In this document: piece by piece, positions 2,686-56,825 of the stretch
How the letters are laid out: each line of letters begins with the position of its first letter
Numbering within the stretch: position 1 is the stretch's first letter
NCBI GenBank assembly: GCA_946614295.1
Contig: CAMOGT010000006.1
Span: 1 to 56,933 of the forward strand
DNA: 56,933 nt
Direction: 5' to 3'
Origin: an uncultured Bacteroidales bacterium
GTDB taxonomy: Bacteria; Bacteroidota; Bacteroidia; Bacteroidales; Paludibacteraceae
Notes under the pieces: model-generated
What the model saw: only the letters and a program-made list of their open reading frames with translations
Databases searched by the model: none
What the model was told of the DNA's origin: nothing
Position numbers and translations under genes: made by a program

Positions 2686-2790
2686 ATAGACCGCTAACGC
2701 TGAAAGAAGAAAGACCGTTTCACTAAAAGACAAAAGACATAAACGGCTTTGAGTCCCGCAGGGACGGTCTTTCTACTTTCTACTTTTATC
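2686..2790. repeat. Intergenic CTTT-heptamer array with mini-hairpin module
   Basis: Fills the spacer between the T9SS gene and the OmpA gene. It holds CTTTCTA heptamers on the plus strand near 2769-2790 and the same word in reverse complement near 2700-2740. A perfect 10-bp inverted repeat joins 2709-2718 to 2764-2773. The core GAG-TCCC-gca-GGGA-CGGT (about 2750-2768) is the mini-hairpin module seen at several other loci here. No -7 promoter box was found, so how the OmpA gene is expressed is not shown. Confidence 0.8.
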
Positions 2791-2804
2791 TAAATAACAT
2801 CATT

Positions 2805-4247
2805 ATGAAAACAAATCGTATATTTTCAATCATTGTTGCAGCGAGCATTGCTTTGACAGCCGTAGCTCAGCAAAGCGAGCATGACAACTACATCGGTGTT
2901 AACTTCGGCGGTGGTCTGAACTCTGCGCTGTACAAGCCGGCTAACGGTACACAGGGTCTGGGCTTCGGCTTCGACGCCGGTCTGCACTACGGTCATTTCT
3001 TCAACAAGACCGTCGGTCTGGGCGTAGGTGCTCAGTTCTCGTGGGCGAACGCGTATGCCACCTATAACTGGAACGAAGTGACGACGGGGCTCACGCACCC
3101 GTCCAACCCCAACACGCCGTATAACCTCACCACGGGCTTCAGCAACTTCGTGGAGCGGCAGAACATCGGCTATCTCTCCATCCCGGTAGAGGTGCTGTTC
3201 CGCAAGAAACTCAACGACCGCGCCGCCTTCATCGGCGGAGTGGGTCTGGCGCTGGACCTGCCTCTCTACGGCAAGTATCTCGCCAAGGGCGGCAGCTACA
3301 GCACGACGGGTGTCTTCCCCGCGCTCGGTAACTACTCTATCGAGAACATGCCGGAGCACGGCTTCAGCACCTATACGACGACGCAGGGCGCCAAGTGGAA
3401 CAACCGCGCGAAGGTAGGCGGATCGGTCATCGCCGACCTCGGCTTCCGCGTAGCGATGAACGACAACTGGGGCATGTACTTCGGTCTGTACGCCGGCTAT
3501 GGCTTCACCAACCTCTTGGGCGGAGCCAAGACGGAGGAGATGATCATGATCAACGCCGCCGACCCCTCCAAGATCGACTACCGCGGTACGTTCGACTCCA
3601 ACGAGGCATCCAAAGCCAACCTCATCCGTGCGGGTGTGAAGATAGCCATCGACTTCGGTTGGGGCGATAATAAGTCTAAAGCCAAGGAGGCGGAGCGTCT
3701 GGCGCGCGAGATGGCAGTCCGTGACTCCATCGCCGCTGCCGAGACAGAGGCTGCACGACTCGCCGCAGAAAAAGCAGAACAAGAGCGTATCGCAGCAGAG
3801 AAAGCGGCTGCAGCAAAAGCAGAAGCTGAACGTATCGCAGCCGAGAAAGCAGCGGCTGAGAAAGCTGAAGCAGAGCGTATTGCTGCAGAGAAGGCCTTCA
3901 GACAAAGCGTGGAAACTATTACTATTCACTTCGATGTAGAAGGTGCCAAACTGAATATTCCGGAGGCAGAGAAAGCGGTAGTGGACGAACTGTGCGAGAA
4001 GATGAAAGCCGACCAGTCCATCAAGATCGTCATCACCGGTCATACCGATAACTACGGTGACCCGCGTCAGAACCTCGAGTTCTTCGGTCTCAGACGTGCG
4101 GAGTCTCTGCGTGACTACATGGTAAAGAACGGCGTGCCCGCCGACCAGATCCGCTGCGAGTCCAAGGGTCAGACCGAGCCTGTCGCTCCGAACGACACAC
4201 GGGCTAATCGCGCAAAGAACCGCCGTGCCGAGATCCGGTTCGAGTAA
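2805..4247 (+). CDS. OmpA-family outer membrane protein with Ala/Glu/Lys coiled coil
   Basis: 480 aa. A signal peptide (cleavage probably after AVAQ, about residue 22) is followed by a beta-rich barrel-like region to about 290. A long Ala/Glu/Lys coiled coil with repeated AERIAAEKAA units covers about 293-365, and an OmpA peptidoglycan-binding domain about 368-480. That domain shows GHTDNYG, the FFGLRRAESLRDYM helix and NRAKNRRAEIRFE. It likely tethers the outer membrane to peptidoglycan, with the coiled coil as a periplasmic spacer. A heptamer array and terminator follow the stop codon. Confidence 0.9.
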   Translation: MKTNRIFSIIVAASIALTAVAQQSEHDNYIGVNFGGGLNSALYKPANGTQGLGFGFDAGLHYGHFFNKTVGLGVGAQFSWANAYATYNWNEVTTGLTHPSNPNTPYNLTTGFSNFVERQNIGYLSIPVEVLFRKKLNDRAAFIGGVGLALDLPLYGKYLAKGGSYSTTGVFPALGNYSIENMPEHGFSTYTTTQGAKWNNRAKVGGSVIADLGFRVAMNDNWGMYFGLYAGYGFTNLLGGAKTEEMIMINAADPSKIDYRGTFDSNEASKANLIRAGVKIAIDFGWGDNKSKAKEAERLAREMAVRDSIAAAETEAARLAAEKAEQERIAAEKAAAAKAEAERIAAEKAAAEKAEAERIAAEKAFRQSVETITIHFDVEGAKLNIPEAEKAVVDELCEKMKADQSIKIVITGHTDNYGDPRQNLEFFGLRRAESLRDYMVKNGVPADQIRCESKGQTEPVAPNDTRANRAKNRRAEIRFE

Positions 4248-4248
4248 T

Positions 4249-4283
4249 GGCGAAAGGCGAAAGGTTATTGGCTAAAGGTTTTA
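4249..4283 (+). repeat. GGCGAAA-type heptamer array (5 units)
   Basis: Five consecutive 7-bp units beginning GGCGAAA, GGCGAAA and then degenerating, starting one base after the OmpA stop codon. It lies directly before the terminator hairpin. Confidence 0.85.
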
Positions 4284-4285
4284 AG

Positions 4286-4314
4286 AAAAATCGTCCTTCG
4301 GGGCGATTTTTTTT
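4286..4314 (+). terminator. Rho-independent terminator of the OmpA gene
   Basis: Seven-pair stem ATCGTCC/GGGCGAT closed by a TTCG tetraloop, followed by eight T. The T-run leads straight into the -33 element of the next promoter, giving a fused terminator-promoter block. Confidence 0.9.
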
Positions 4315-4343
4315 GCATATGTCAGAAAAAAGTTGTACCTTTG
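4313..4343 (+). promoter_or_regulatory. Promoter of the CE12-like esterase
   Basis: TTGCATATGTCA (4313-4324), 11-bp spacer, TACCTTTG (4336-4343). A start expected near 4348-4350 leaves about 20 nt of leader before the ATG at 4371, and rules out the TTG at 4341 as the start codon. Confidence 0.85.
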
Positions 4344-4370
4344 CCATCGGAATTCAAACTTATTACTACC

Positions 4371-5720
4371 ATGCGAAAGATTATTTCCTTTGTACTTTGT
4401 ACATTGTCCCTTTGCACCTTATCTGCCGCTCCGCGGCGTGTACACACGATCGGCGACAGCACGATGAGCGAGTACAAACCCGCAGCAACGCCCAAACGCG
4501 GCTGGGGCATGTACCTCCAGGCGTTCTTCAATGCCGACTCCGTAACCGTCAACAACCGCGGCAAGAGCGGTGCCTCCACCCGCACGTTCTACGAGACGGA
4601 CAACCTCTGGCCGTCCGTCAAGAGACAGATGAAAGCGGGCGACTACCTCATCATCCAGTTCGCCCACAACGACGAGAAATGCAAGGGCGAGGACGTGTAT
4701 GTGGAGAACGCGCGTTTGCGCGCCGAGGGCAAGGACACGCTCACCGACATGCGCGGCACGGAGCCCAACACGACCTACAAGGAGTATCTGCGGACCTATA
4801 TCCGCGAGGCACGCGAGATGGGCGTGACGCCGATCCTGATGAGCCCTATCTGCCGCGCGTATTTCAAGAACGGCAAGATCAATGACGAAGGGCAACACAA
4901 GCTTTCAGCGGTCAGCCATCAGCCATCAGAGGCAGGAGACAAAGATTATGTCCGTTGCATGCGTGAGGTGGCGGAGGAGATGATGGTGCCGTTCCTGGAC
5001 ATGACCGCCCGCAGCCGCGAGTTCTACGAACAGGAGGGTCAGAGCTACTGCATGAGCAACTATTTCAACTGCGGCGACAAGACGCATACCTCGGCTGCCG
5101 GCGGCATGGCGATCGCCTCGCTGGCATACGAACTGATTAACAACTCGCCGGAGTTGGAGGAGATGCACCCGTGGCTCGTCTTCCCGTCCAAAGAGGCTTA
5201 TACCGCCTATGCGCAGAACATCGAAGAGCGCGGCAAGAAAGCGGCTTTTGCGGCAAAAGGAACGCCGGTTGAGTTACGAATGACGAATGACGAATTACGA
5301 ATGCTGAATATGGAGCCCGGCAAGAAGGGTTACGTAGCGGCAGGCGGTCTCTGGCCGGCAGGCGAGATAGACGAGGTAGCCAACCGCTATATCGAGTACA
5401 CCATCGCGGCGGAGAAGAAGAAAGGCCTCGTCATCGAGCATATCACCCTACCCCTCAAGGCGATCGGCGGCGCGGGCATGAATATCCATATCAACTACGG
5501 TTTCGGCGAGGAGTTCAGCGGCGTGACGACTATCTACGAAAACACGGCGCTACCGAAGAACAAAGAGATCGTCATTAAACTCGACCAGCCGATTCTCGTA
5601 CCCGCCGGACAGACGCTGCACCTGCGTATCCTGCCGTGGTACGACTCCAACGGCAAGCCGCAAGGCAAGAAGTTCCTGAGATTAGGAGAACTGGAAGTAG
5701 CCGGAAAGCGACTGAACTAA
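4371..5720 (+). CDS. SGNH-hydrolase, rhamnogalacturonan acetylesterase-like (CE12)
   Basis: 449 aa with a signal peptide (MRKIISFVLCTL...SAAP). SGNH blocks: IGDSTMSEY near residue 22 (nucleophile Ser), NNRGKSGAST (block with Gly), QFAHNDEK (Asn block), and GDKTHTSAAG (Asp/His of the catalytic triad). This order is typical of CE12 rhamnogalacturonan acetylesterases, which remove acetyl groups from pectin. A C-terminal beta-sandwich-like region (about 310-449) follows. The ATG at 4371 was chosen because the -7 box ends at 4343. Two heptamer arrays lie in frame between conserved blocks (4905-4932, 5274-5308), and CTTTGTA repeats also lie in the signal-peptide coding region (4388-4401). Confidence 0.85.
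   Translation: MRKIISFVLCTLSLCTLSAAPRRVHTIGDSTMSEYKPAATPKRGWGMYLQAFFNADSVTVNNRGKSGASTRTFYETDNLWPSVKRQMKAGDYLIIQFAHNDEKCKGEDVYVENARLRAEGKDTLTDMRGTEPNTTYKEYLRTYIREAREMGVTPILMSPICRAYFKNGKINDEGQHKLSAVSHQPSEAGDKDYVRCMREVAEEMMVPFLDMTARSREFYEQEGQSYCMSNYFNCGDKTHTSAAGGMAIASLAYELINNSPELEEMHPWLVFPSKEAYTAYAQNIEERGKKAAFAAKGTPVELRMTNDELRMLNMEPGKKGYVAAGGLWPAGEIDEVANRYIEYTIAAEKKKGLVIEHITLPLKAIGGAGMNIHINYGFGEEFSGVTTIYENTALPKNKEIVIKLDQPILVPAGQTLHLRILPWYDSNGKPQGKKFLRLGELEVAGKRLN
4905..4932 (+). repeat. TCAGCCA heptamer array inside the esterase gene
   Basis: Four 7-bp units of the TCAGCCA type. It encodes a low-complexity loop (LSAVSHQPSEA) just before the region leading to the catalytic His. It is the reverse-complement word of the array at 34973-35028. 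Confidence 0.85.
5274..5308 (+). repeat. TTACGAA/TGACGAA heptamer array inside the esterase gene
   Basis: Five 7-bp units encoding ELRMTNDELRMLN, a peptide with an internal 7-residue repeat, at the linker between the catalytic domain and the C-terminal beta domain. The same word, reversed, forms the spacer at 54275-54309. Confidence 0.9.
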
Positions 5721-5760: not shown

Positions 5761-5797
5761 CTTTCTACTTTGAGCAAAGCGGTCTTTCGACTTTCTG
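5761..5797. repeat. CTTT-heptamer array with GAG-n-CGGT core
   Basis: Units CTTTCTA, CTTTGAG, then the core caaagCGGT, then CTTTCGA and CTTTCTG. It lies between the bidirectional terminator and the stop codon of the last exbD gene. Confidence 0.85.
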
Positions 5798-8930: not shown

Positions 8931-9740
8931 TCATTTTAGCCCAAAAAGGCGTTTTGCGTTGGCAGTTGTGACCTCAATTACGGTCTTTTTGTCTGTTTGA
9001 TAGACCTGCGCAAGCCGTTCCGCCACGTACTCCATCCACCGGCTCTCGTTCCGTTCGCCCCGATGCGGCACGGGTGCCAGATACGGACCGTCGGTCTCCA
9101 GCACCAAGCGCTCTAATGGCACGCGTTCAAAGCGTCCGTCACCGGCTAAGGTGTCAGCGAGTTTGCAGTTCTTGAAGGTTATCACGCCGCCGATCCCTAA
9201 GTAGAAACCGAGGTCGAGGACCTGCTGCGCCGTCTCGCGGCTGCCGTTGAAACAGTGAAGGACACCGGTTAATGTACTATTTGGACATTTACCGTTTACC
9301 ATTAAGGCTTCTTTCAGGATGCGCAGGCAGTCCTCCGTCGCCTCGCGGCTGTGGATCATCACCGGCAGGTGCAGTTCCTGCGCCAGATCTAATTGCAGCC
9401 GGAAGAGTTCTTGCTGCTCCGATTTGTAGGTGGTGTCCCAATAATAGTCAAGACCAATCTCGCCGATAGCGACCAGTTCGTCGCGGTGGGCGCGGATGGC
9501 TTGTTCAATGACCGTCCACTGCGTTTGCCAGTCCGCCGTTACATCCTGCGGATGGAGTCCCAGCGCCGGGTAACAGTAGCCCGGATGGCGACGGGCGATA
9601 TCGAGAATCCCCTCTATCGAGGCGGCATTGACGCCGGGTATGAGCATGGCTTCCACGCCTGCCTCACGCTGCCGCGCGATCACCTCCTCGCGGTCGGGCG
9701 CATACGCCTCTTCATCTATATGGATATGGGTGTCGAGCAA
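8931..9740 (-). CDS. tatD: TatD-family metal-dependent hydrolase
   Basis: 269 aa, full length for the family. Metal ligands: THIHID near the N-terminus, EIGLDYYW (Glu about 94), VMIHSRE (His about 129), VLHCFNG (His about 158), and LETDGPYL (Asp about 212). TatD proteins are 3'-5' exonucleases acting in DNA repair or RNA turnover. The start is a TTG at 9740; no in-frame ATG or GTG lies nearby, and the upstream bases are the heptamer array 9741-9775. A loop VNGKCPNST near 152 is encoded by degenerate TTACCNT words. Confidence 0.9.
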   Translation of the reverse strand: MLDTHIHIDEEAYAPDREEVIARQREAGVEAMLIPGVNAASIEGILDIARRHPGYCYPALGLHPQDVTADWQTQWTVIEQAIRAHRDELVAIGEIGLDYYWDTTYKSEQQELFRLQLDLAQELHLPVMIHSREATEDCLRILKEALMVNGKCPNSTLTGVLHCFNGSRETAQQVLDLGFYLGIGGVITFKNCKLADTLAGDGRFERVPLERLVLETDGPYLAPVPHRGERNESRWMEYVAERLAQVYQTDKKTVIEVTTANAKRLFGLK

Positions 9741-9775
9741 AATGAAAAATGAAAAATGAAAAATGAAAAATGAAA
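9741..9775. repeat. AATGAAA heptamer array (5 units)
   Basis: Five near-perfect 7-bp units filling the whole tatD-queA spacer, continuing into TTACGA/TGACGA words at 9776-9796. It touches the TTG start codon of tatD. Confidence 0.95.
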
Positions 9776-9777
9776 GA

Positions 9778-10995
9778 TTACGAATGACGATTGAGAATGG
9801 AACTGTCGCCGTAGGAGAGGAAACGGAAACCGTGGTTCAGAGCGTAGTCATATATGGTGCGCCAATCACCACCGACAAAGGCACTGACGAGCAGCAAGAG
9901 TGTCGATTGCGGCTGGTGGAAGTTCGTGATCAACTGATCCACCACACGGAAGGTATAACCGGGTTTGATCATGATCTGGGTCTCGGCGTGGAGGGTCTGT
10001 TGCCCCGTGGCATCGAGGTAATCGAGGATCGCCTGTAGTGCCTCACGGGTAGAGAGTATGTATTCTTTTCCGTAGGGTTCGAACTGGTCCACATGTATCT
10101 CATCGGAATACTGATATTCCGATTTGTCGATATTCCGAAGCTGACAACCGATGAAATAGAGGCTCTCGAGGGTTCGCATGGAGGTCGTTCCCACGGCTAC
10201 GATCTTGCCGAGCTTGGTCTGTATATGGGCGATGGTCTCCCGCGGCACGGCGATGATCTCCGTGTGCATCGTGTGTTCGTTGGCGTCCGCCGTCTTGACG
10301 GGCAGGAACGTACCGGCGCCCACGTGAAGCGTCACTTCGTCAGTCTCTATGCCGCGGCGATGCAGGTCGTCCAGCACGTTTTGGGTGAAATGCAAGCCGG
10401 CAGTCGGAGCGGCTACGGAGCCTTTGATACGTGAATAAACAGTCTGGTAGGTCTTCAGGTCGGACGCCTCGGTCTTGCGGTTGAGGTACGGCGGAATAGG
10501 CAACTCGCCTGCCGCATCCAGAATCTCCGCGAAGGAGACACCCTCGCCGTCCCACTCAAAACGCACGGCAAAAGTGTTGCCCAGCACCTGCTCCTTGTAT
10601 GCACGGAGCGTGAAACCGCCTGCTTGCAGCGAAACGGGTTCGTCGTGCCATTTCTTGGCATTACCGACCATACATTTCCACGTACAGCCGGTGGTCGAGG
10701 TCAGTGAGAGCTGATAGTCGTGCGGCTCCAGCGGCTCCAGACAGAACACCTCTATCCGGGCACCGGTGGGTTTGCGGAACTCCAGACGCGCCTGTATCAC
10801 GCGCGTGTTATTATATATAAGGAGTGCGGAGGGCGCGATATAGTCGCCCACATTGTAGAACCGGTCTTCCGACACCTCGCCCCCGCGATAGACCAGCAGC
10901 TTGCTGTGGTCGCGTTCCGGCAGCGGGTATTTGGCAATCCGCTCGTCGGGCAGCGGGTAGTTGAAATCCGCTATGTATAGCGGTTTATTTACCAT
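9778..10995 (-). CDS. queA: S-adenosylmethionine:tRNA ribosyltransferase-isomerase
   Basis: About 405 aa. Transfers and isomerises the ribosyl part of SAM onto 7-aminomethyl-deazaguanine in tRNA, giving epoxyqueuosine. Recognisable blocks: FNYPLPDERIAKYPLPERDHSKLL near the N-terminus, PTAGLHFT near the middle, VTLHVGAGTFLPVK, and TNFHQPQSTLLLLVSAF near the C-terminus. The ATG at 10995 is preferred; in-frame ATG 11010 and GTG 11016 lie in the octamer/heptamer region and would add a repeat-derived peptide. It overlaps the end of the rlmL-like gene by 11 nt. Confidence 0.93.
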   Translation of the reverse strand: MVNKPLYIADFNYPLPDERIAKYPLPERDHSKLLVYRGGEVSEDRFYNVGDYIAPSALLIYNNTRVIQARLEFRKPTGARIEVFCLEPLEPHDYQLSLTSTTGCTWKCMVGNAKKWHDEPVSLQAGGFTLRAYKEQVLGNTFAVRFEWDGEGVSFAEILDAAGELPIPPYLNRKTEASDLKTYQTVYSRIKGSVAAPTAGLHFTQNVLDDLHRRGIETDEVTLHVGAGTFLPVKTADANEHTMHTEIIAVPRETIAHIQTKLGKIVAVGTTSMRTLESLYFIGCQLRNIDKSEYQYSDEIHVDQFEPYGKEYILSTREALQAILDYLDATGQQTLHAETQIMIKPGYTFRVVDQLITNFHQPQSTLLLLVSAFVGGDWRTIYDYALNHGFRFLSYGDSSILNRHS

Positions 10996-12247
10996 TTGGT
11001 CGTTTACCATTTTCACATTTTCGCATTTTCACATTTTCGCATTTTTGCATTTGGTCACTGCGTTTGCCGGCAAAGAGGTCGTAGCGGTTGAATTGGCAAT
11101 CCAGTTCGCCGTTGAGGAGGTGGTATTTCTTGGAGGGTTTGAGTCCGATACACTTCATCGCCGCAGCGTTGGAGGAGATGATCCACGCCGTGGAACCGGC
11201 GAACTGGTGTTTGAGTGCCGTGCCGATGGCGGAGTAGAGATCCTCCATCTCTTTGTTGCTCTTGAGCCGTTCGCCATAAGGAGGGTTGAGCATCACAATG
11301 GGTGATGTATTTGAAGATTGGAAAATTTGAAGATTGGAAGATTTGATTTCTTCCATGCGGATCTGCTTGAGTTCCACATCTTTCTGCACACCGGCGGACT
11401 TGATATTCTTCAGTGCCTGCTGAATGGCGTAGAACGAGGCGTCTGAACCGTATATCTTATGGGTGAACTCGCGTTCGCGGCTGTCATCGTTGTATATGTC
11501 GCTCCATAAGTCAGCATCGAAGTCGGGCCATTTCTCAAAGGCGAAAGCACTCCGGAAGACCCCCGGCGCGATGTTGTGTGCGATGAGCGCCGCCTCGATG
11601 AGCAGCGTACCCGAACCGCACATGGGGTCATAGAAATCCGTCTGACCGCTCCACCCCGCCATGAGCAACATTCCCGCCGCCAGGACCTCGCTGATCGGGG
11701 CTTCGGTCGTTGCCACGCGGTAGCCGCGTTTGTGCAGACTCTCGCCGGAGCTGTCCAGCGAGACGGTCAGGTGCTCGGCGCTGATATGCACATTGATGCG
11801 CAGGTCGGGGTTCTCGACAGATATATTCGGGCGGGAGCCTGTTTTCTCCTGCCAGTAATCGACGATGGCGTCCTTCACGCGGTAGGTCACGAACCGGCTG
11901 TTGCGGAAAGTCTCGCTATAGACGGTAGTGTCGATAGCGAAAGTGGTGTCAGCCGTCATGTACCGGCTCCAGTCGATCTTCTGCACCTCCTCGTAGAGCA
12001 GATCCTCGGGTTTGAGGTCTTTGGCTCTGCGCGGCATGCGAAGGGTGGCTTCGTGGACAGGCACGAGCACACGGATCGCCGTGCGCAGACATAAGTTAGC
12101 ACGGTAGAGAAGCGCCTTGTCCCCTCTAAAAGAAACGGCTCGTCTTTCGATGAGCACGTCATTGGCGCCTAACTCGATAAGTTCCTGCGCTAATACTTCC
12201 TCCAAGCCCTTGAACGTCTTGGCAAGCATAGAAAAGTTTTTCATCAT
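10985..12247 (-). CDS. rlmL: THUMP-domain 23S rRNA guanine-N2 methyltransferase-like
   Basis: 420 aa. A THUMP-type N-terminal region (about 1-165) precedes a class I SAM methyltransferase domain with DPMCGSGTLLIEAA (about 185) and the catalytic MLNPPYGERL motif (about 325). This matches the RlmL N-terminal half, which methylates G2445 of 23S rRNA; the RlmK half is absent, as usual in Bacteroidetes. Two octamer arrays lie in the gene: one encodes KSSNLQIFQSSN before the NPPY motif, the other makes the C-terminal tail (KCENVKMRKCENGK) and the overlap with queA. Confidence 0.87.
   Translation of the reverse strand: MMKNFSMLAKTFKGLEEVLAQELIELGANDVLIERRAVSFRGDKALLYRANLCLRTAIRVLVPVHEATLRMPRRAKDLKPEDLLYEEVQKIDWSRYMTADTTFAIDTTVYSETFRNSRFVTYRVKDAIVDYWQEKTGSRPNISVENPDLRINVHISAEHLTVSLDSSGESLHKRGYRVATTEAPISEVLAAGMLLMAGWSGQTDFYDPMCGSGTLLIEAALIAHNIAPGVFRSAFAFEKWPDFDADLWSDIYNDDSREREFTHKIYGSDASFYAIQQALKNIKSAGVQKDVELKQIRMEEIKSSNLQIFQSSNTSPIVMLNPPYGERLKSNKEMEDLYSAIGTALKHQFAGSTAWIISSNAAAMKCIGLKPSKKYHLLNGELDCQFNRYDLFAGKRSDQMQKCENVKMRKCENGKRPNGK
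11008..11055. repeat. CATTTTC(A/G) octamer array (6 units)
   Basis: Six 8-bp units across the rlmL-like 3' end and the 5' side of queA, followed toward queA by degenerate TTTACCA words. 48 bp equals 16 codons, so the rlmL-like frame is kept. Confidence 0.92.
11309..11348. repeat. ATT(T/G)GAA(G/A) octamer array in the rlmL-like gene
   Basis: Five 8-bp units inside the methyltransferase domain. The same octamer is found inside murF at 13700-13739, in a different protein and frame. Confidence 0.92.
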
Positions 12248-13432: not shown

Positions 13433-14646
13433 AATAACGGTATTACTTTTTCCAATTGGTTACTTCTGCTGCCTTTCAGCAGGATGCGGTATCCGCTGAG
13501 CGGCTCTTGTTCCAGATGCCGGCAGAGCGCCTCTACGTCGTCAAAGACGGGGTACGGCGCAGTCGTCTCTTTGTACTCTGCTCCAACTAACAGCACTTTA
13601 TCCGCCTTCCTCTCCAGCAGCATATTGACGATATTCTGGTGCTCCAAATGGCTGTATTCGCCCAACTCGCGCATCGCACCGAGGATATATGCCTTCGGCA
13701 TTTGAAGATTGGAAGATTGGAGCATTTGAAGATTATCAAATGCGTTGATTGCAGCCGTCATGGAGGTCGGGTTGGCGTTATAGGCATCGATGACGACGGT
13801 GTTCTTGTCGGTCTGCATGAGTTGCGAGCGGTTGTTGGACGGCACATACGCACGGATGGCAGCCAGAGCCTCCTCTTGCGACACGCCGAAATACTCGCCT
13901 ACGCAGATCGCCGCCGACACGTTCTCCGCGTTGTATCCGCCTACCAGGTGCGTACCCTCCGGCATCACGCCGGTATGGTATAAGACGGTCTCCAAGGACC
14001 TTAAGGTCTTTAAGGACTCTAAGGACTTTTTCTCCATCTCCTCCAGATGCGGGTTGTCGGCATTGCGGAAGATGAGTCCGCCGTGCGCCAGCAGGAAATC
14101 ATATAGCTCCGCCTTGGTGCGTTTGACGCCCTCGAACGAACCGAAACCCTGCAGGTGCGCCTTGCCGACATTGGTAATCAGACCGTAGTCCGGTTCGGCT
14201 ATCTCCACCAGTTCTTTGATGTCTCCCGGATGGGAAGCGCCCATCTCCACGATCGCCATCTCATGCGCACGGGTGATGGACAGCAAAGTCAGGGGCACGC
14301 CTAACTGGTTATTGAGGTTGCCCTGCGTGTAATAGAGATTGTATTTGGTGGATAGCACCGCTGCGCAGAGTTCTTTCGTGGTCGTCTTGCCGTTCGTACC
14401 GGTGATGCCGAGAATCGGCAGCCCTAACTCACGCCGCCAGGCACGGGCGAGGTCCTGCAGTTCCGCCAAGGCGTTTTCGCCCGAGATGATATACTCTGCC
14501 CCATCCTTCCGCGCCTGCTCCACAAAGTCGTTACCGTCGAAGTGTTCCCCTTTGAGCGCAACAAAGATAGAGCCGGGAGTTACCTTCCGGCTATCTGTTG
14601 TGACGGTGAGCGATTCTTTATTTTTTATTAGGAAGCTCCAGTCCAT
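13429..14646 (-). CDS. murF: UDP-N-acetylmuramoyl-tripeptide--D-alanyl-D-alanine ligase
   Basis: 405 aa, slightly short for MurF. Adds D-Ala-D-Ala to the muramoyl tripeptide in the last cytoplasmic step of peptidoglycan precursor synthesis. ATP site GITGTNGKTTTKEL (about 82-95), Mur ligase signature EMGASHPGDIKEL (about 137), and DAYNANPTSM (about 268). Two tandem arrays lie inside: nonamers at 13994-14029 (KSLESLKTLRSLET) and octamers at 13700-13739 (LQMLQSSNLQMP), both where loops would be expected. It overlaps the MFS gene by 29 nt. Confidence 0.92.
   Translation of the reverse strand: MDWSFLIKNKESLTVTTDSRKVTPGSIFVALKGEHFDGNDFVEQARKDGAEYIISGENALAELQDLARAWRRELGLPILGITGTNGKTTTKELCAAVLSTKYNLYYTQGNLNNQLGVPLTLLSITRAHEMAIVEMGASHPGDIKELVEIAEPDYGLITNVGKAHLQGFGSFEGVKRTKAELYDFLLAHGGLIFRNADNPHLEEMEKKSLESLKTLRSLETVLYHTGVMPEGTHLVGGYNAENVSAAICVGEYFGVSQEEALAAIRAYVPSNNRSQLMQTDKNTVVIDAYNANPTSMTAAINAFDNLQMLQSSNLQMPKAYILGAMRELGEYSHLEHQNIVNMLLERKADKVLLVGAEYKETTAPYPVFDDVEALCRHLEQEPLSGYRILLKGSRSNQLEKVIPLL
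13700..13739. repeat. ATTTGAAG/ATTGGAAG octamer array in murF
   Basis: Five 8-bp units, the same word as at 11309-11348, between the DAYNANPTSM motif and LGAMRELG of MurF. Confidence 0.92.
13994..14029. repeat. AAGGACTTT nonamer array in murF
   Basis: Four 9-bp units starting AAGG. As 9 is a multiple of 3, the peptide repeats as SLESLKTLRSLE. It lies in the central domain after an NADNPHLEEMEKK segment. Confidence 0.92.
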
Positions 14647-17194: not shown

Positions 17195-17204
17195 ATCCGG
17201 GATT

Positions 17205-25520: not shown

Positions 25521-25524
25521 CTAT

Positions 25525-42863: not shown

Positions 42864-42924
42864 CTTTTATCTTTGAGCAGGCTCTGCCTGCGGTCTTTCT
42901 ACTTTGAGCGTAGCGGTCTACTCA
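42864..42924. repeat. CTTT-heptamer array with two GAG-palindrome-CGGT cores
   Basis: CTTTTAT, CTTTGAG, core CAGGC-tct-GCCTG then CGGT, CTTTCTA, CTTTGAG, core cgtagCGGT, then CTACTCA. The last unit carries the stop codon of the adaptor gene (TAG on the minus strand). Confidence 0.93.
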
Positions 42925-43925
42925 ACTACATTAACCTTCACGCCGTCCACGAGTTTGTGCTGGCCGGTGGTTACGACCTCTACGCCCTCCTTGATTTCGT
43001 CGGCGATGATCTCAATGTCCTGGTCAAAACGCTGACCGAGCGTAACAGTCACCCTCTTGGCGTGTCCGTCCTCTACGATGAAGACATAACGGTCGTTGGC
43101 ACCGACGAGTTTCTCTACCGCCTGGTACGGGATAACGAGCGCGTTAGCCTTGCCCAGACCGATTGTGGTCGTCACGTACATACCCGGGCGGAGAAGGTTC
43201 TTGCCGTTCGGGATGACGATCTTGCATTGGAACGTGTGAGTGGAGGGGTCAATCGTCGGATAGACGATCTCTACCGTAGCAGGGAATGTTTTGTCGGGAT
43301 AGATATCCGTAGAGAGCGATAGTTTCATACCCGGTTTGAAGAGCGGGAAATACGTCTCGGGGATAGCCACAAGCGCCTTCAGTTTGTCTATCTGGGTCAG
43401 GATCAGAATCGGCTGGCCGCTGTAGAGCTCACCATCCTCATAGTTCTTGGCGGAGATCACACCGGCAAACGGGGCCTTGACATACGTGTTCTGCTCCAGG
43501 AACTCCAGTTGCTCCTTGGTGGAGTTATACTGGGTGATAACCTGGTCGTACTGCTGCTGGGTAGCCGAACCCGAACGGAGCAACTGGGTCACACGGTTCT
43601 TCTCGATCTCAAGGTTAGCCATGGTGATCTTGGTGGTCTTGTACTGGGTCTGGTCCATGCGGACGAGGTCAGTACCTTTGCTGACCCGGTCGCCCACCTC
43701 GCGGTAGATATGCTCTATCTTCCCGGTGAGGGACGGAGCCACGTTTTGGGTGAGATACCCCTGAAGGTTGGTGGAAACAGAGATCTCGCGCTCTATCTCA
43801 CGCGGTTGGAGTACCGTGGTGCGGACTTGCTCCACGCGTTCTTCCTCCTGCGTAGCAGTACTTTCCTTGCTGCCGCAGCCTATGAGCGCCAAGGCTGTGA
43901 GGACATAAAACAGATTCTTTTTCAT
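42918..43925 (-). CDS. RND efflux periplasmic adaptor (membrane fusion lipoprotein)
   Basis: 335 aa from the ATG at 43925. Signal peptide with lipobox ALIGC, then the MFP layout: lipoyl-half, alpha-hairpin with LEIEKNRVTQLLRSGSATQQQYDQVITQYNST, second lipoyl-half (VKAPFAGVISAKNYEDGELYSG), beta-barrel and membrane-proximal domains. It bridges the RND pump and TolC. The frame also allows a start 12 nt upstream, overlapping the tolC stop. Confidence 0.93.
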   Translation of the reverse strand: MKKNLFYVLTALALIGCGSKESTATQEEERVEQVRTTVLQPREIEREISVSTNLQGYLTQNVAPSLTGKIEHIYREVGDRVSKGTDLVRMDQTQYKTTKITMANLEIEKNRVTQLLRSGSATQQQYDQVITQYNSTKEQLEFLEQNTYVKAPFAGVISAKNYEDGELYSGQPILILTQIDKLKALVAIPETYFPLFKPGMKLSLSTDIYPDKTFPATVEIVYPTIDPSTHTFQCKIVIPNGKNLLRPGMYVTTTIGLGKANALVIPYQAVEKLVGANDRYVFIVEDGHAKRVTVTLGQRFDQDIEIIADEIKEGVEVVTTGQHKLVDGVKVNVVE

Positions 43926-53088: not shown

Positions 53089-54279
53089 ATGGCTAAACTA
53101 CTGATCATAGACGACGAACGCGGCATACGCAACACGCTGCGTGAGATACTCGCCGACGAAGGGCACGAGGTAGAGGTGGCAGAGAACGGCAAGCAAGGGC
53201 TCGAAATGGCGCAAGCCAAAGCCTACGACCTCATCTTCTCCGACATCAAAATGCCGGAGATGGACGGAATGGAAGTGCTTGCAAAAATAGTCGAAAGTCG
53301 AAAGTCGAAAGTCGAAAGCGAAGGGGAGTTCGCGAGTACCGAGACTCCCGTAGTGATGATCAGCGGACACGGAGATGTCGAGACCGCCGTGCAGGCACTC
53401 AAAATGGGCGCGTATGATTTTCTGCTCAAGCCGCTCGACCTCAACCGCATCCTCATCACCACCAAGAACGCGCTGGAGTCCAAATCGCTCAAACAGGAGA
53501 CCAAGATTCTCCGCAAGAAGATTTCCTCCAAGGGTCCGCAGATGGTCGGTGAGTCCGCAGCTATTATGCGCGTACGCGAAATTATTAATAAGGTGGCGCC
53601 CACCGAGGCGCGCGTGCTCATCACCGGACCCAACGGCACCGGAAAAGAAGTGGTGGCGCACCTCATACACGAGCAGTCGGCACGGGCTGCCGGACCGATG
53701 GTCGAGGTCAACTGCGCCGCTATCCCGAGCGAACTGATTGAGAGCGAACTCTTCGGACACATGAAAGGTTCGTTCACCGGAGCGGTCAAGGACCGGGCAG
53801 GTAAGTTCGAGCAAGCCGACGGGGGCACGCTCTTCCTCGATGAAATCGGCGACATGTCCCTGGCCGCGCAGACCAAAGTGCTGCGCGCATTGCAAGAGTC
53901 CGAGATAACACGCGTCGGTTCGGACAAGGCCATCAAAGTGAATGTCCGGGTACTCGCGGCAACGAACAAAGATTTGCAGAAAGAGATCGAGGCGGGTAAT
54001 TTCCGCGAGGACCTCTTCCACCGCCTCAACGTCATCCCTATTCATGTACCCTCGCTCAACGAGCGGCTGGAAGACATTCCGCTGTTAGTGGACTATTTCG
54101 CCGCACAGATCTGCAACGAGCAAGGTATCGCCGTCAAGACTTTTGAACCCGAGGCGATCAAGGCGCTGCAAGCCCGGCAGTGGACGGGCAACATCCGCCA
54201 GCTACGTAACGTAGTTGAGCGCCTCATCATCCTCGCCGGGGCGAAGATCACCGCCGACGATGTTGAAGCGTACGCCTAA
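53089..54279 (+). CDS. NtrC-type response regulator lacking the HTH domain
   Basis: 396 aa from the ATG at 53089 (MAKLLIIDDERGIRNTL); the frame opens earlier but the promoter lies inside that extension. Receiver domain about 1-135 with phospho-Asp in LIFSDIKMPEMDG. AAA+ domain about 150-375: Walker A ITGPNGTGKEV, the sigma54 contact loop as GSFTGA, Walker B GTLFLDEIGDMS, R-finger region LFHRLNVIPI. It ends after VVERLIILAGAKITADDVEAYA, about 50-60 residues before where a Fis-type HTH would finish, so the DNA-binding domain is missing. A heptamer array lies in the receiver. Confidence 0.88.
   Translation: MAKLLIIDDERGIRNTLREILADEGHEVEVAENGKQGLEMAQAKAYDLIFSDIKMPEMDGMEVLAKIVESRKSKVESEGEFASTETPVVMISGHGDVETAVQALKMGAYDFLLKPLDLNRILITTKNALESKSLKQETKILRKKISSKGPQMVGESAAIMRVREIINKVAPTEARVLITGPNGTGKEVVAHLIHEQSARAAGPMVEVNCAAIPSELIESELFGHMKGSFTGAVKDRAGKFEQADGGTLFLDEIGDMSLAAQTKVLRALQESEITRVGSDKAIKVNVRVLAATNKDLQKEIEAGNFREDLFHRLNVIPIHVPSLNERLEDIPLLVDYFAAQICNEQGIAVKTFEPEAIKALQARQWTGNIRQLRNVVERLIILAGAKITADDVEAYA
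53290..53349 (+). repeat. GTCGAAA heptamer array plus inverted repeat in the receiver domain
   Basis: Four perfect GTCGAAA units (53290-53317), then a degenerate fifth, then GGGAGT...ACTCCC (53324-53349). The peptide VESRKSKVES has a 7-residue period, the direct outcome of a 7-bp unit read in three frames. Confidence 0.94.
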
Positions 54280-54309
54280 TTCGTAATTTTTAATTCGTAA
54301 TTCGTAATT
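54275..54309 (+). repeat. CGTAATT heptamer array forming the whole regulator-recF spacer
   Basis: Five 7-bp units. The first holds the regulator stop codon (TAA) and the last ends at the first base of the recF TTG start codon. Confidence 0.94.
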
Positions 54310-55448
54310 TGATTTTAACACAGTTAAATATCCTAAACTACCGCAATATACGCGAGGCGAGTCTGGAGTTTGCACCCAAACTCAACTGCTTCGTGGGGCT
54401 TAACGGACAAGGCAAAACGAATGTCTTGGACGCGATCTACCTGCTCTCTTTCGCCAAGTCCGCTTTCACCTCCCAGGACTCCCTCAACATCACCCACGGC
54501 GAACAGATGTCCATGGTGCAAGGGGTGTATAGCAGTCTTTCTACTTTGAGCGCTAGCGGTCTTTCTACTTTGAGCCCGGAGGGCGGTCTAACGACCATCT
54601 CCTGCGGCCTGCGGAGAGGCGTAAAAAAGCAGTTCCGCAAGGACAAGAAAGATTACCAGCGCTTATTGGATCATATCGGGTTGATACCGCTCGTGATGGT
54701 TTGTCCGGCAGATCACCAACTTATAGAAGAAGGATCGGACGAGCGGCGCAGGTTTATGGATGTCGTGATCGGACAACGGAACAGGAAATATCTGGATTGT
54801 CTGGCGACCTACAATGCGCTGCTCAAGCAACGCAACGCCTTACTCAAACAATATGCCGACGCACCTAATCCTCCGGACGACTTGCTGGAGGTGCTCGAAT
54901 GGCAGATGGTAGAGCCTGCGGAATATATCTTCCAAGCCAGAACGGATTTCTTCAAAGAGTTCGAGCCCTATTTCCAAGAGGTATATAAAGTCATCAGCAA
55001 TCAACCGGCAGAGATCAGTTGCCTCCGCTATATATCGCAACTCCAGGACCGCGAGTTGCGCGAAGCGTACGTGCGTACCCGCAAACGCGATTTAATTTTA
55101 GGATGGACCAGTCAAGGACCGCATAAAGACGACCTCGACATGCGGCTCGGAGACTACCCGCTCAAGCAAGTGGGCAGCCAGGGACAGCAACGCACTTTTG
55201 TGCTCGCGATGAAATTGGCACAGGCTTTGTACTTAGCTGACACAACGGGCGAGGCACCGATATTGTTGCTGGACGATATCTTCGACCGTCTCGATAGCGA
55301 ACGCGTCGAAAGGATTGTAGGCATGGTGCAGGGCGAGCAGTTCGGACAAATCTTTATCACCGACACCGACCGTCAACACCTCACAGAGATACTCAAACCC
55401 AGCGCAAGCGCCAAGATATTCCACGTAGAAAATGGACAGATTATTTAA
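54309..55448 (+). CDS. recF: DNA replication and repair protein RecF
   Basis: 379 aa. Walker A CFVGLNGQGKTN (about 30), KDKKDYQRLLDHIGLIPLVMVCPAD, ABC signature VGSQGQQRTFVLAMKLAQAL (about 283), Walker B ILLLDDIFDRLD (about 318). The start is TTG at 54309, the only initiator that gives the usual MILTQLNILNYRNI opening. Residues about 77-93 (SLSTLSASGLSTLSPEG) are encoded by a heptamer/mini-hairpin array inserted between GVY and TTISCGL, where other RecF proteins have a short loop. Confidence 0.94.
   Translation: MILTQLNILNYRNIREASLEFAPKLNCFVGLNGQGKTNVLDAIYLLSFAKSAFTSQDSLNITHGEQMSMVQGVYSSLSTLSASGLSTLSPEGGLTTISCGLRRGVKKQFRKDKKDYQRLLDHIGLIPLVMVCPADHQLIEEGSDERRRFMDVVIGQRNRKYLDCLATYNALLKQRNALLKQYADAPNPPDDLLEVLEWQMVEPAEYIFQARTDFFKEFEPYFQEVYKVISNQPAEISCLRYISQLQDRELREAYVRTRKRDLILGWTSQGPHKDDLDMRLGDYPLKQVGSQGQQRTFVLAMKLAQALYLADTTGEAPILLLDDIFDRLDSERVERIVGMVQGEQFGQIFITDTDRQHLTEILKPSASAKIFHVENGQII
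54537..54587 (+). repeat. Heptamer/mini-hairpin array inserted in recF
   Basis: CTTTCTA, CTTTGAG, core CGC-ta-GCG then GT, then CTTTCTA, CTTTGAG, core CCC-gga-GGG then CGGT. 51 bp equals 17 codons, so the frame is kept. Two different palindromes follow two identical heptamer pairs. Confidence 0.95.
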
Positions 55449-56658
55449 AACATATTTGGTCTGTATTCTGTCAGCAATAGCGGTCTGTACTCTGTCAGCT
55501 GAAAGCGGTCATATGCCGTTTAGGGGTGCCTGGATAGCAACGGTAGCCAATATCGACTGGCCGTCCGCCGAGGCTGTCGGAAACACCCAAAGGCAGCAGG
55601 AAGAGATGATTTTTCTGCTCGACTCGCTCCACGCCATCGGCATCAACGCCATCATTTTTCAGGTTCGCCCGACTGCCGATGCACTCTATAAGAGCGAATA
55701 CGAACCCGTATCCCATTGGCTCACCGGAAAACAAGGGAGTTGGGACAATTCACAAATCCCATGGGATCCGTTAGCATGGACCATTGAGCAGGCACATGAC
55801 AGAGGAATGGAAGTCCATGTATGGCTCAATCCATACCGCGTCAATCTCGCCAAGACGGACACCTCCGCTATTTGCGCCGACCATGTATGGCGCAAACACA
55901 GAGACTGGTTCTGGGAGTACAACAAGCAATGGTACTTCGACCCGGGTTTGGACGTGACGCGCGAGTGGATATGCACCATTGTACAGGACATCATCACCCG
56001 CTACGACGTGCAGGCGATTCACATGGACGACTATTTCTACCCCTACCCTGCCGGCAAACTGCCGCTGCCCGACGAAGCCACTTTTGCCCGGTACCCGCGC
56101 GGTTTCACGGACATCAAAGACTGGCGGAGGGATAATGTCAATCTGGCGATAAAAGCCATCAGCGAGACGATCCGCGAGTGCCGTACGGACGTAGAGTTCG
56201 GTATCTCGCCCTTCGGCGTCTGGCGCAACGCCTCCGTTGATTCCACGGGCAGCAAGACGCAAGCCGGTATCACCAACTACGACGACCTCTACGCCGACAT
56301 CCGCCTATGGATCAAAGAGGGATGGATAGATTACGTTCTGCCGCAGCTCTATTGGGAGATAGGCAAGAAAGTAGCGGATTACGAGGTTCTCGCCCATTGG
56401 TGGGCGAACGAGGTGCGCGGAACGAAATGCAAACTCTACATCGGCATGGCGCCGTATAGACTGATTGAATCTTCAAATCCGTCCCCTTGGGCTACCGGCA
56501 ACGAGATTAAGCGGCAGATGGACCTCAACCGCACCATTCCCGAAATCTCCGGCGAGTGTTTCTACTCCGCCAAACCCCTTCTTCGCAACCCGCGAGGCGT
56601 GTGCGACTCCATCAAAGCTACCTATAAAACGGACGATTTCTCTCTCCCTTGGGAATAA
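55432..56658 (+). CDS. GHL10-like glycoside hydrolase (YngK/DUF187 type)
   Basis: 408 aa. Signal peptide whose coding region contains a CTGTCAG array, then MPFRGAWIATVANIDWPS and the barrel: LLDSLHAIGINAIIFQVRPTADALYKSEY, GMEVHVWLNPYRVN, DPGLDVTREWICTIVQDIITRYDVQAIHMDDYFYPYP, EFGISPFGVWRN, DYVLPQLYWEIGK. These match the TIM-barrel glycosyl-hydrolase-like 10 family of secreted proteins; the substrate is unknown. The start overlaps recF by 17 nt. Confidence 0.9.
   Translation: MDRLFKTYLVCILSAIAVCTLSAESGHMPFRGAWIATVANIDWPSAEAVGNTQRQQEEMIFLLDSLHAIGINAIIFQVRPTADALYKSEYEPVSHWLTGKQGSWDNSQIPWDPLAWTIEQAHDRGMEVHVWLNPYRVNLAKTDTSAICADHVWRKHRDWFWEYNKQWYFDPGLDVTREWICTIVQDIITRYDVQAIHMDDYFYPYPAGKLPLPDEATFARYPRGFTDIKDWRRDNVNLAIKAISETIRECRTDVEFGISPFGVWRNASVDSTGSKTQAGITNYDDLYADIRLWIKEGWIDYVLPQLYWEIGKKVADYEVLAHWWANEVRGTKCKLYIGMAPYRLIESSNPSPWATGNEIKRQMDLNRTIPEISGECFYSAKPLLRNPRGVCDSIKATYKTDDFSLPWE
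55462..55510 (+). repeat. CTGT-heptamer array with mini-hairpin cores in a signal peptide region
   Basis: CTGTATT, CTGTCAG, core caatagCGGT, CTGTACT, CTGTCAG, core ctgaaagCGGT. Same grammar as the CTTT arrays with a different heptamer, coding VCILSAIAVCTLSAESG. Confidence 0.92.
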
Positions 56659-56678
56659 AACGCGCCTGAATACCTCAC

Positions 56679-56714
56679 AAAAATGCACTTTGAGTTTACA
56701 TTGTGCATTTTTTT
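56679..56714 (+). terminator. Terminator of recF/GHL10 genes
   Basis: Stem AAAAATGCAC/GTGCATTTTT with a 14-nt loop and a T-run that continues into the next -33 element. Confidence 0.85.
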
Positions 56715-56715
56715 C

Positions 56716-56746
56716 TTGCATATGTCAAAAAAAAGCAGTAATTTTG
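56716..56746 (+). promoter_or_regulatory. Promoter of the Fe-S scaffold gene
   Basis: TTGCATATGTCA, 11-bp spacer, TAATTTTG; about 75-80 nt of leader containing an octamer array. Confidence 0.87.
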
Positions 56747-56785
56747 CAGCGCAAAATATGTGGGAAAATAACTCATTGGCAAAAT

Positions 56786-56825
56786 AAATGACCAAATAGT
56801 AAATTTTTAAATAACTAAATGACTT
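56786..56825 (+). repeat. AAATGAC-type octamer array in the leader
   Basis: Five degenerate 8-bp A-rich units ending 1 nt before the ATG at 56827. Weaker than the other arrays. Confidence 0.6.

Follow-up and report, generated by a model that had tools for sequence, protein, structure and literature searches.

The STRR of heterocystous cyanobacteria are dispersed 7-bp tandem arrays, and ERIC-type intergenic imperfect palindromes and MITEs are known element classes. Heptanucleotides are described as the commonest long repeats in most genomes (PMC4679880, PMC4692102), and slippage with a preferred 7-nt step was proposed by Mrazek and colleagues, as reported in PMC4679880. Direct repeats of TAACTGA occur in Beggiatoaceae, Cyanobacteria and five Bacteroidetes including Paludibacter propionicigenes, which has two sets (PMC4679880). 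In 2015 a detailed literature on heptameric repeats was said to be missing (PMC4692102). The first-pass annotation of the DNA analyzed here noted many short heptamer arrays and held that no such family had been described in Bacteroidales; heptamer repeats are already in print, Bacteroidetes included (PMC4679880, PMC4692102), and the arrays are a variant of them.

Our window, a stretch of 56,933 nucleotides from an uncultured Bacteroidales bacterium, holds 15 exact lag-7 runs of at least 8 bases, where 40 order-3 Markov sequences average 0.72 (sd 0.77), and 5 runs of at least 12 bases, where they average 0.0. In the same test, lags 5, 6, 8 and 10 are close to background. Lags 14 and 21 are raised as a consequence of lag 7; lags 9, 15, 18 and 24 are raised too, an effect to be expected of codon structure, and lags 16 and 22 to a lesser degree. 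A gapless scan at a score of at least 11 found 13 period-7 segments against 0.12 in Markov controls; at a score of at least 9 it returned 30 segments, 14 of period 7 (0.5 expected), 4 of period 8 (0.75) and 12 of period 9 (0.5). Several period-9 segments inside coding sequence (e.g. 41810-41829) may be ordinary three-codon repeats. The controls keep composition to order 3 and not codon structure; codon repeats cannot yield periods 7 and 8. The earlier count of at least 24 loci is reached if looser period-9 segments are included and not otherwise.

A close relative, G001, extends the signal: a 522-kb sample contains 136 strong period-7 segments against 0 in Markov controls, with periods 8, 9 and 11 weaker (27-38 segments) and periods 5, 6 and 10 weakest (2-11). 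The repeat observation is confirmed as real, the enrichment over a random model being present in the window and in these 522 kb, which cover part of the checks proposed for it; spread through the whole genome of the window's organism would be an extrapolation from relatives. Successive units are identical in 174 of 501 pairs in G001, so units are mostly imperfect, and they are about 72% A+T. Purine-strand bias does not exceed that of the flanks. A unit built of a constant core and a variable spacer was rejected, as variable columns are not clustered in 7-mers and only weakly so in 8-mers.

Table 1. Repeat arrays and hairpin units of the window
Feature	Location	Positions	Strand	Source
Heptamer array CTTTCTA	intergenic gap	2769..2786	.	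gapless scan
Heptamer array AAAGGCG	at stop codon of gene 2805-4247	4246..4264	.	scan
Heptamer array CTTTGTA	just upstream of called start of gene 4464-5720	4388..4412	.	
Heptamer array AGCCATC (GCTGACn class)	inside gene 4464-5720	4900..4929	.	scan
Heptamer array GAATGAC, with TTACGAA units	inside gene 4464-5720	5271..5309	.	scan
Heptamer array AAAATGA	fills 37-bp gap between queA-like and tatD-like genes	9739..9778	-	
Octamer array	queA/rlmKL-like junction	11003..11052	-	scan
Octamer array ATTTGAAG	inside rlmKL-like gene	11309..11346	-	scan
Octamer array ATTTGAAG	MurF loop, an insertion relative to E. coli MurF	13700..13734	-	
Nonamer array	second variable MurF stretch	13994..14027	-	
Heptamer array AATAATG	Skp-like protein gene	17094..17125	-	
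Nonamer array CCAGTTTAT	Skp-like/bamA gap	17170..17198	-	scan
Heptamer array ATAAATC	glutamate racemase	27084..27118	+	alignment, scan
Heptamer array GTCTTTT	variable N-terminal stretch of SufB	34415..34448	-	scan
Heptamer array GCTGACG	near C-terminus of DnaQ-like protein	34973..35027	-	scan
Heptamer array TCGTACA	inserted loop of RlmI-like methyltransferase	36715..36732	-	scan
Heptamer array CATCTTT	gene junction	37036..37069	-	scan
Heptamer array AGTCGAA	NtrC-like regulator	53289..53318	+	alignment, scan
Heptamer array TAATTCG	covers stop and start at NtrC-like/recF junction	54277..54309	+	scan
CTTTGAG-hairpin-CGGTC unit, stem GTCCC/GGGAC		2741..2781	+	
CTTTGAG-hairpin-CGGTC unit, stem only GC/GC		5762..5796	+	
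Two CTTTGAG-hairpin-CGGTC units, stems GCACC/GGTGC and GCGGC/GCCGC		25464..25533	+	
CTTTGAG-hairpin-CGGTC unit, stem only GC/GC	inside RlmI-like gene	36439..36473	+	
Two CTTTGAG-hairpin-CGGTC units, stems GCAGGC/GCCTGC and GC/GC	RND/adaptor gap	42865..42930	+	
Two CTTTGAG-hairpin-CGGTC units, stems GC/GC and GCCC/GGGC	inside recF	54538..54600	+	

The arrays favor operon gaps and occur in loops of ordinary enzymes too (Table 1). By midpoint, 7 of the 14 period-7 segments in the window lie in CDS interiors, as the earlier estimate of about half in genes had it, 6 in same-direction gaps and 1 inside a CDS within 60 bases of its start. In G001, same-direction gaps make up 7% of the sample and hold 64 of 136 arrays, often filled by them, the median distance being 2.5 bp to the stop and 17 to the start; a called stop codon falls inside 27 of the 136 (mean 3.6 expected), and 43 lie in CDS interiors. 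The in-gene arrays of the window keep reading frames open. The array in glutamate racemase lies at a 12-residue insertion relative to 1b73, with gaps placed differently against 2oho, and that in the NtrC-like regulator sits at a 12-residue insertion in the receiver domain relative to 4l4u. At the stretch matching the SufB array, E. coli SufB is the longer protein at its N terminus. The array at 17094 encodes part of an N-terminal hydrophobic, signal-peptide-like stretch, and the one at 4388 falls within a longer ORF, 4341-5720.

Words recur between loci. In G001 there are 265 same-word array pairs against 10.1 expected (maximum 19 in 200 draws). Of array pairs less than 150 bp apart, 7 of 16 share a word in G001 and 18 of 21 do so elsewhere, inverted copies included; the proportion is about 11% for arrays on separate contigs, 5.7% for arrays of different genomes and 2.0% for random 7-mers. 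Words of different genomes are thus alike about three times as often as random 7-mers, so sequence preference or exchange matters too. Word sharing declines unevenly with distance: G001 still has 9 shared among 54 pairs at 10-60 kb, and the other genomes have 2 among 15 at 150-500 bp. Some close pairs belong to a single interrupted array or are arms of the same element. Within the window, the recurrences first proposed survive as scan arrays for the pairs 5271/54277, 4900/34973, 11309/13700 and, as nonamers, 17170/45310. The supposed TTACGAA array at 9776 is the AAAATGA array of 9739-9778, and the GTACATC pair 36716/39066 loses its second member, which is no scan segment; 39066-39100 is 86% complementary to the array region 36711-36745.

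The CTTTnnn arrays once placed at 5761, 25463, 36438, 42864 and 54537 are better described as CTTTGAG-hairpin-CGGTC units. There are nine, five of them with differing, perfectly paired stems of 4-6 bp, and they look like products of short-range template switching (PMC8794818). At locus L001 the RND/adaptor gap holds an inverted heptamer pair where the window has hairpin units.

Orthologous slots turn over between species. We compared periods 7-9, with 'absent' meaning no segment at score 9; the comparisons are between species, and no array was seen changing within one species. Eleven of the 30 window segments lie in regions matched in G001: 2 keep their word, 4 have another and 5 are absent there, only 2 of the 11 being of period 7 (one kept, one different). 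Conversely, among 21 anchored G001 segments (9 more are unanchored), 2 keep their word, 5 have a different word in the same slot and 14 are absent; for the 17 of period 7 the counts are 1, 4 and 12. The 'absent' slots at the adaptor/TolC and RND/adaptor gaps have a weaker array (43931) and hairpin units in the window. Same bases at the same positions in orthologues of distant genera would indicate ordinary conserved coding sequence; with 2 of 11 words kept, this comparison, run in part, does not refute the arrays.

Individual slots illustrate the turnover. Where the window has its AAAATGA array between the queA-like and tatD-like genes, G001 has 36 bp of AACGACT units, and the octamer array of the queA/rlmKL-like junction is a 7-mer array in G001. 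The octamer array inside the rlmKL-like gene and the nonamer array of the Skp-like/bamA gap are absent in G001, and AATAATG at 17094 is kept. Both MurF loops retain an array with word and unit size changed, octamer against 7-mer at 13700 and nonamer against 7-mer GTCCATT at 13994, and base identity at the two slots is 45% (15/33) and 52% (14/27) in a gene that is 75% identical overall. Different words in the same slot of related species point to a probable mutational process rather than a fixed signal. The recurring vocabulary of G001, neighbor sharing and slot turnover all support the earlier suggestion of an active process other than simple microsatellite slippage.

The trait is patchy and lineage-restricted. 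Array density is 1.1-3.5 per 10 kb in G001, G002, G004 and G005, while the relatives G006 and G007 are nearly array-free (a single array in 100 kb and none in 68 kb, respectively). Of 198 Bacteroidales genomes examined with an AATT-based proxy, 50 show period 7 as the dominant one, 5 period 8 and 0 period 6, in counts of overlapping matches that register one long array several times and for a pattern that depends on A+T content. Lag-7 runs of at least 10 were absent from single stretches of 22.9-39.8 kb in some high-count genomes (G038, G057, G138 and G161), so the proxy does not prove the trait for every genome. G088, with a dominant period-8 pattern, is usable as a contrast. On a RuvB tree with 63 of 81 rows labeled, labels for the trait change 13 times against about 19.5 when shuffled, at least 8 changes being forced by starred branches.

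No enzyme tracks the trait among RAYT, Ku, MutS, ExoVII, reverse transcriptase and Y-family polymerases, with noisy labels that each rest on a single locus of up to 21 kb, and with MAGs that may be incomplete. Ku/NHEJ is present in 0 of 41 genomes. Loss of MutS does not follow the trait: 17 of the 18 array-rich genomes and 20 of the 23 array-poor ones have a full match (E<1e-78). Nor does loss of ExoVII, which is present in 14 and 19, respectively. Reverse transcriptase occurs in 7 of 18 and 8 of 23, and Y-family polymerases in 16 of 18 and 19 of 23. Among the polymerases, matches of the strong DinB type (E<1e-50) occur in 1 of 18 and 8 of 23, a weak opposite trend that is uncorrected for kinship.

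We give roughly even credence to a lineage-restricted process that writes and rewrites arrays in multi-unit steps by error-prone template-switching synthesis, filtered by selection. An ongoing mutational process in some Bacteroidales would lay short imperfect arrays with a 7-bp unit, less often 8 or 9, and later overwrite existing ones. Its most likely source would be error-prone synthesis during repair or replication, copying one short template repeatedly in small steps, with words taken partly from nearby or other arrays by template switching. Inside genes at least, several units would have to be added or replaced at once, because single 7- or 8-bp steps would shift the frame of MurF, a cell-wall enzyme. 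Selection would retain arrays where they do little harm, in stop-to-start operon gaps, loops and signal-peptide-like stretches; 7- and 8-bp units in operon gaps would bring stop codons in several frames. The polymerase mechanism, one-step insertion and neutrality are what we infer from these sequence patterns. The preference for a unit of 7 is not accounted for by template switching, and we also count against it the lack of a gene tracking the trait among those searched, the likeness of words between genomes, the non-smooth word sharing, the unclustered variable positions and the word kept at 17094.

Alternatively, though we think it unlikely, the arrays may be arms or remnants of MITE-like non-autonomous elements, solitary arrays being cut-down copies. 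The core, about 88 bp long, is matched 11 times in G001, counting the query copy, and 8 times in G004; all but the query copy are 73-83% identical to the query. In these two genomes nearly all copies are flanked by inverted heptamer arrays, and core and arms form an imperfect palindrome of about 145 bp that often fills an intercistronic gap; called genes lie 12-40 bp from both core ends at 9 of 19 element loci. Arm pairing reaches 75.4% of cells in register and falls to 31-48% when the arms are slid; it does not clearly exceed that of shuffled partners, with 39 of 500 shuffles equalling the pairing and 23 of 500 the covariation score. One pair of an occupied and a short site was compared, the junction lying upstream of the RNase Z gene: it measures 14 bp in the window and holds a whole element in G001, one arm coding for the last residues and stop of the upstream protein. 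At L044, four inverted heptamer pairs surround spacers of similar appearance to the eye. As in MITEs, the core family of G001 and G004 has terminal inverted repeats on both sides of its conserved core, and such a core with flanking arms is more readily explained by a mobile element than by synthesis error alone. Arms on shared cores at first seemed strikingly species-specific, but one G004 copy has G001-type arms and core identities are mixed, and we do not claim it. Rfam searches with four core loci gave three matches at E up to 1, all below gathering scores.

The reach of this family argues against it as a general account. With the core model, 6 copies turned up across the 522 kb of G001, so the family covers at most about 12 of the 136 arrays there; the window has no copy. 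RAYT (PF01797), the REP/BIME partner and the only transposase sought for the element, matched in 10 of 22 genomes searched and in none of the array-rich G001, G002, G005, G014 and G016-G019. The solitary MurF arrays, moreover, differ in unit size between the two species.

Plain polymerase slippage, local to each site and with a physical preference for 7-nt steps, seems to us improbable. It is at odds with words that recur across loci and are shared by neighbors even as inverted copies, with the in-frame arrays of MurF, and with relatives both having and lacking the trait. Still less probable is that the arrays are functional RNA or DNA signals, such as binding sites controlling translation of the next gene, a role suggested for the TAACTGA repeats of Beggiatoaceae (PMC4679880). 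Their strong concentration in operon gaps, and the lie of AAATCGT (5 of 5) and AACGACT (5 of 7) on the sense strand of same-direction gaps in G001, would suit such a role, but related species have unrelated words in the same slot, the arrays are nearer stops than starts, and many are in CDS interiors. An assembly or binning artefact, or chance, is very improbable: most comparison genomes are metagenome assemblies, but the signal is seen again in independent assemblies with different hosts in their titles, in-gene frames stay open, and the G001 enrichment and densities across relatives largely refute it.

Beyond template-switching synthesis, it is a doubtful but conceivable idea that a dedicated repeat-writing activity inserts ready-made multi-unit 7- or 8-mer arrays from a genome-specific vocabulary and overwrites them in one step. 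If so, the enzyme or template system would be a small-scale analogue of telomere-repeat addition or rolling templated synthesis, acting at many sites, even inside genes such as murF. The old puzzle of the bias of bacterial tandem repeats toward 7-bp units becomes testable here, through relatives with and without the trait, slots with differing words, the period-8 genome and the in-gene frame argument. The arrays also show one way in which conserved bacterial proteins gain new loop insertions, C-termini and signal-peptide-like sequence.

Cyanobacterial STRR are likewise dispersed 7-bp tandem arrays, but belong to another phylum, the host of the window being a Bacteroidales by the kinship of its RuvB, and are likened by description, not by words. 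ERIC and MITE elements share with our core and arms the imperfect palindrome in intercistronic gaps, the arms here being heptamer arrays. Heptanucleotide LSSR (Mrazek et al. 2007, via PMC4679880, PMC4692102) also are an excess of 7-nt tandem units, in genomes that are scattered phylogenetically; we find that excess over a composition model, but not near-perfect repeats at independent loci, the Bacteroidales arrays being imperfect, with a recurrent vocabulary, words shared by neighbors and slots that turn over. Like TAACTGA repeats (PMC4679880), they are heptamers in intercistronic gaps with stops in all frames, but they use many words and are common in coding sequence. TAACTGA repeats are mostly a few nucleotides upstream of starts; the G001 arrays often fill the whole gap, with medians of 2.5 bp to the stop and 17 to the start. 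TAACTGA pairs with up to 2 mismatches number 0 in the window, and TAACTGA is no array consensus in the scanned samples; two copies lie inside a longer array of L075. The GGGNATC repeats of Xanthomonas and GGGGA(C/T)T repeats of Nostoc are, as here, heptameric, intergenic and sometimes inverted pairs, often found between the same genes in relatives with varying length and sequence (PMC4692102); in the window and scanned samples GGGNATC arrays are absent, and the G001 units are A+T-rich. Archaeal Borg repeats (PMC9879509) also evolve fast, lie between and inside genes and are specific to some genomes. Their units are nearly perfect, virtually all unique per genome and divisible by three in ORFs, whereas here 7- and 8-bp units occur in ORFs and words are common to several loci.

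The excess of short tandem repeats in the window centres on period 7. Exact lag-7 runs of at least 8 bases number 15, versus 0.72 in controls (40 order-3 Markov sequences), and runs of at least 12 bases number five versus none. Lags 14 and 21, the multiples of 7, are likewise in excess; lags 5, 6, 8 and 10 lie near background. There is a further rise at lags 9, 15, 18 and 24, of the kind expected from codon structure, and a weaker one at 16 and 22. A gapless scan yields 13 period-7 segments at a score of at least 11 (0.12 expected) and, at a score of at least 9, 14 of period 7 (0.5 expected), four of period 8 (0.75) and 12 of period 9 (0.5). Periods 5, 6, 10 and 11 give 1, 3, 2 and 3 segments against 0.25-0.5. 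Codon structure can produce period 9 and cannot produce 7 or 8. TRF recovers most of these arrays.

A RuvB scan places the window's nearest kin among rumen Bacteroidales/Paludibacteraceae, with 97% RuvB identity to L001, a locus of the close relative G001, and 90-95% to loci L002-L006. G001 carries 136 period-7 segments in 522,340 bases at a score of at least 11, with none expected; periods 8, 9, 11, 10, 6 and 5 give 38, 27, 28, 11, 11 and 2 versus 0-1 expected. The period-11 segments look unrelated to the period-7 trait, since array-poor G006 has them too (5 in 100 kb). Period-7 segments per 10 kb number 2.28 in the window, 2.65 in G001, 3.53 in G002, 1.15 in G004, 1.11 in G005 and 1.64 in G012, versus 0.10 in G006 (1 in 100,200 bases) and none in the 67,629 bases scanned of G007. 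We surveyed 198 Bacteroidales genomes by matches to three tandem AATTNNN units, a proxy that counts overlapping matches and depends on A+T content. With dominance defined as 20 or more matches and a threefold or greater excess over both the period-6 and period-8 counterparts, period 7 dominates in 50 genomes; period 8 dominates in five and period 6 in none, and 76 genomes have five or fewer period-7 matches. One genome, G088, with 584 period-8 matches versus 48 (period 7) and 17 (period 6), is possibly an octamer-dominated counterpart. A RuvB tree with 81 rows, of which 24 are array-rich, 39 array-poor and 18 unlabelled, requires 13 changes of the trait; shuffling gives about 19.5, with 1-2 of 500 shuffles reaching so few, and at least eight of the changes are forced by starred branches. 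The trait is thus clustered on the tree, yet repeatedly gained or lost.

Arrays concentrate at gene junctions. By a home-made gene caller, same-direction gaps hold 64 of the 136 G001 arrays while being 7% of sequence, and coding interiors hold 43 while being 77%. For these gap arrays, the median distance to the preceding stop codon is 2.5 bp and that to the following start 17 bp. A called stop codon falls inside 27 of the 136 arrays, versus a mean of 3.6 under random placement (maximum 9, 50 draws), and a start codon inside six, versus 3.4; 41 of 73 junction arrays have sense-strand stops in all three frames. Aligned to solved structures, in-gene arrays of the window fall at insertions or variable stretches: insertions of 12 residues in glutamate racemase (versus 1b73) and in an NtrC-like receiver domain, 8 in MurF and about 10 in an RlmI-like enzyme, and a variable stretch where the E. 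coli SufB is longer.

The content of orthologous slots turns over. The tatD/queA gap holds 37 bp of ATTTTTC units in the window and 36 bp of AACGACT units in G001. In the window, the adaptor and TolC genes share a 1-bp overlap, at which a weak array lies; the two are separated by 27 bp with AATTAAA units in L001 and by 39 bp with GTTGAAA units in L004, another relative's locus. A different gene pair, overlapping by 4 bp in both the window and L004, has an array of 26 bp in L001. Among period 7-9 segments, 11 of 30 in the window lie in regions matched to G001, where two keep the word (the consensus unit), four have a different word and five are absent; one of the two keepers is a coding nonamer. 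Conversely, 21 of 30 G001 segments in matched regions could be anchored: two have the same word in the window, five have a different one and 14 are absent from it; for the 17 of period 7 the numbers are 1, 4 and 12. Two window nonamers compared with L004 gave one different and one absent, and three L004 segments compared with the window gave one different, one absent and one unanchored. MurF (402-405 residues) has two slots, each occupied by an array in both the window and G001; the units are 8-mers versus 7-mers in one and 9-mers versus 7-mers in the other. Base identity in the slots is 45% (15/33) and 52% (14/27), versus 75% (897/1203) for the gene. Stepping by a single 7- or 8-bp unit would put the gene out of frame at these sites, which makes multi-unit insertion or replacement the simplest explanation.

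Words are shared well beyond chance. Across the 136 arrays of G001 there are 54 canonical words and 265 same-word pairs, versus a mean of 10.1 for flanking 7-mers (maximum 19, 200 draws). By eye, arrays with the same word mostly have unrelated flanks; the exceptions are four loci with AAATCGT and a few with AACGACY, which have neighbouring letters in common. Of pairs less than 150 bp apart, 7 of 16 from G001 and 18 of 21 from the other genomes have words agreeing to within one mismatch; the share is about 11% for pairs on different contigs and 5.7% between genomes, versus 2.0% for random 7-mers, and the drop with distance is not smooth. Among pairs closer than 150 bp (score 9), 20 are in inverted and 12 in direct orientation; in some cases the two members belong to a single interrupted array. 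GC-containing tetramers are rare in units, AATT, TTAA and TGAA are common, and successive units in G001 match exactly in 174 of 501 comparisons. The best reading, to which we give about an even chance, is lineage-restricted writing and rewriting of arrays, filtered by selection; template switching could do the writing.

The main rival, a mobile-element origin of the arrays, seems to us unlikely. Three inverted array pairs in G001 share a core of about 88 bp, forming composite elements. A core search gave 11 matches in G001, eight in G004 and one of 21 bases in G010; eight further genomes had none. Most copies have AATTNAC-type (G001) or AATTNAG/AATTATG-type (G004) left arms and the inverse on the right, and 9 of 19 loci have a called gene within 12-40 bp of each core end. 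At the junction preceding the RNase Z gene, stop and start are 14 bp apart in the window; G001 has a complete element at that junction, one arm of which supplies the upstream protein with new C-terminal residues and a stop codon. At E up to 1, a covariance model of the core picked up six copies in the sampled part of G001, a single copy in L004 and no copy in the window; L005, L089 and L002 gave weak matches (E 0.28-0.84), which were left out of the count. Four inverted heptamer pairs on L044, a Prevotella MAG contig, span similar-looking spacers of 27-40 bp within 10 kb and are perhaps another such family.

The window instead holds nine CTTTGAG-hairpin-CGGTC units, all on the + strand. In five of them the stems pair perfectly over 4-6 bp and differ from unit to unit; the other four have GC/GC only. 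A hairpin scan gave 10 matches with a stem of at least 2, one lacking the CTTTGAG/CGGTC frame, where Markov sequences average 0.2 (maximum 2). Surrounding genes run in both directions, and the units' uniform strand may reflect replication direction. The table also lists a promoter-like repeat of the window, which we take to be of Bacteroidetes type.

Positions of individual features in the window and in loci of relatives
Sequence	Position	Strand	Feature
Window	19-2685		Protein with T9SS sorting domain; internal repeats spaced by about 516-522 bp
Window	2741-54600	+	Nine CTTTGAG-hairpin-CGGTC units
Window	4307, 8866, 12486, 26704, 31141, 34836, 37584, 45953, 52961, 56710	both	Promoter-like repeat TTGCATATGTCA...TAnnTTTGC, intergenic
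Window	8337-8552		108-bp unit in tandem duplicate, 99% identity, beside tRNA-Ser (8653-8741)
Window	8559, 12299		129-bp stretch found at both, at 12299 overlapping second tRNA-Ser
Window	17094		Array encoding part of hydrophobic, signal-peptide-like N-terminus
Window	41810		Coding nonamer keeping its word in G001
L005	1890-2055		166-bp TAATTCG array with TAATTTT units interspersed, among longest arrays found
L044	4287-4388, 11327-11430, 13107-13208, 14041-14160		Inverted heptamer pairs

Among the matches listed in the open-licence literature, titles and abstract openings did not yield this pattern in Paludibacteraceae or Prevotella. Related repeats are in print: PMC4692102 describes GGGNATC arrays and states that detailed literature on heptameric repeats was lacking, and PMC6749651 notes satellites derived from heptamers. 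Heptamer arrays are therefore a known kind of repeat, of which the pattern found here is a new variant. In lying both in genes and between them, the repeats of PMC9879509 are the closest analogue to the present arrays.
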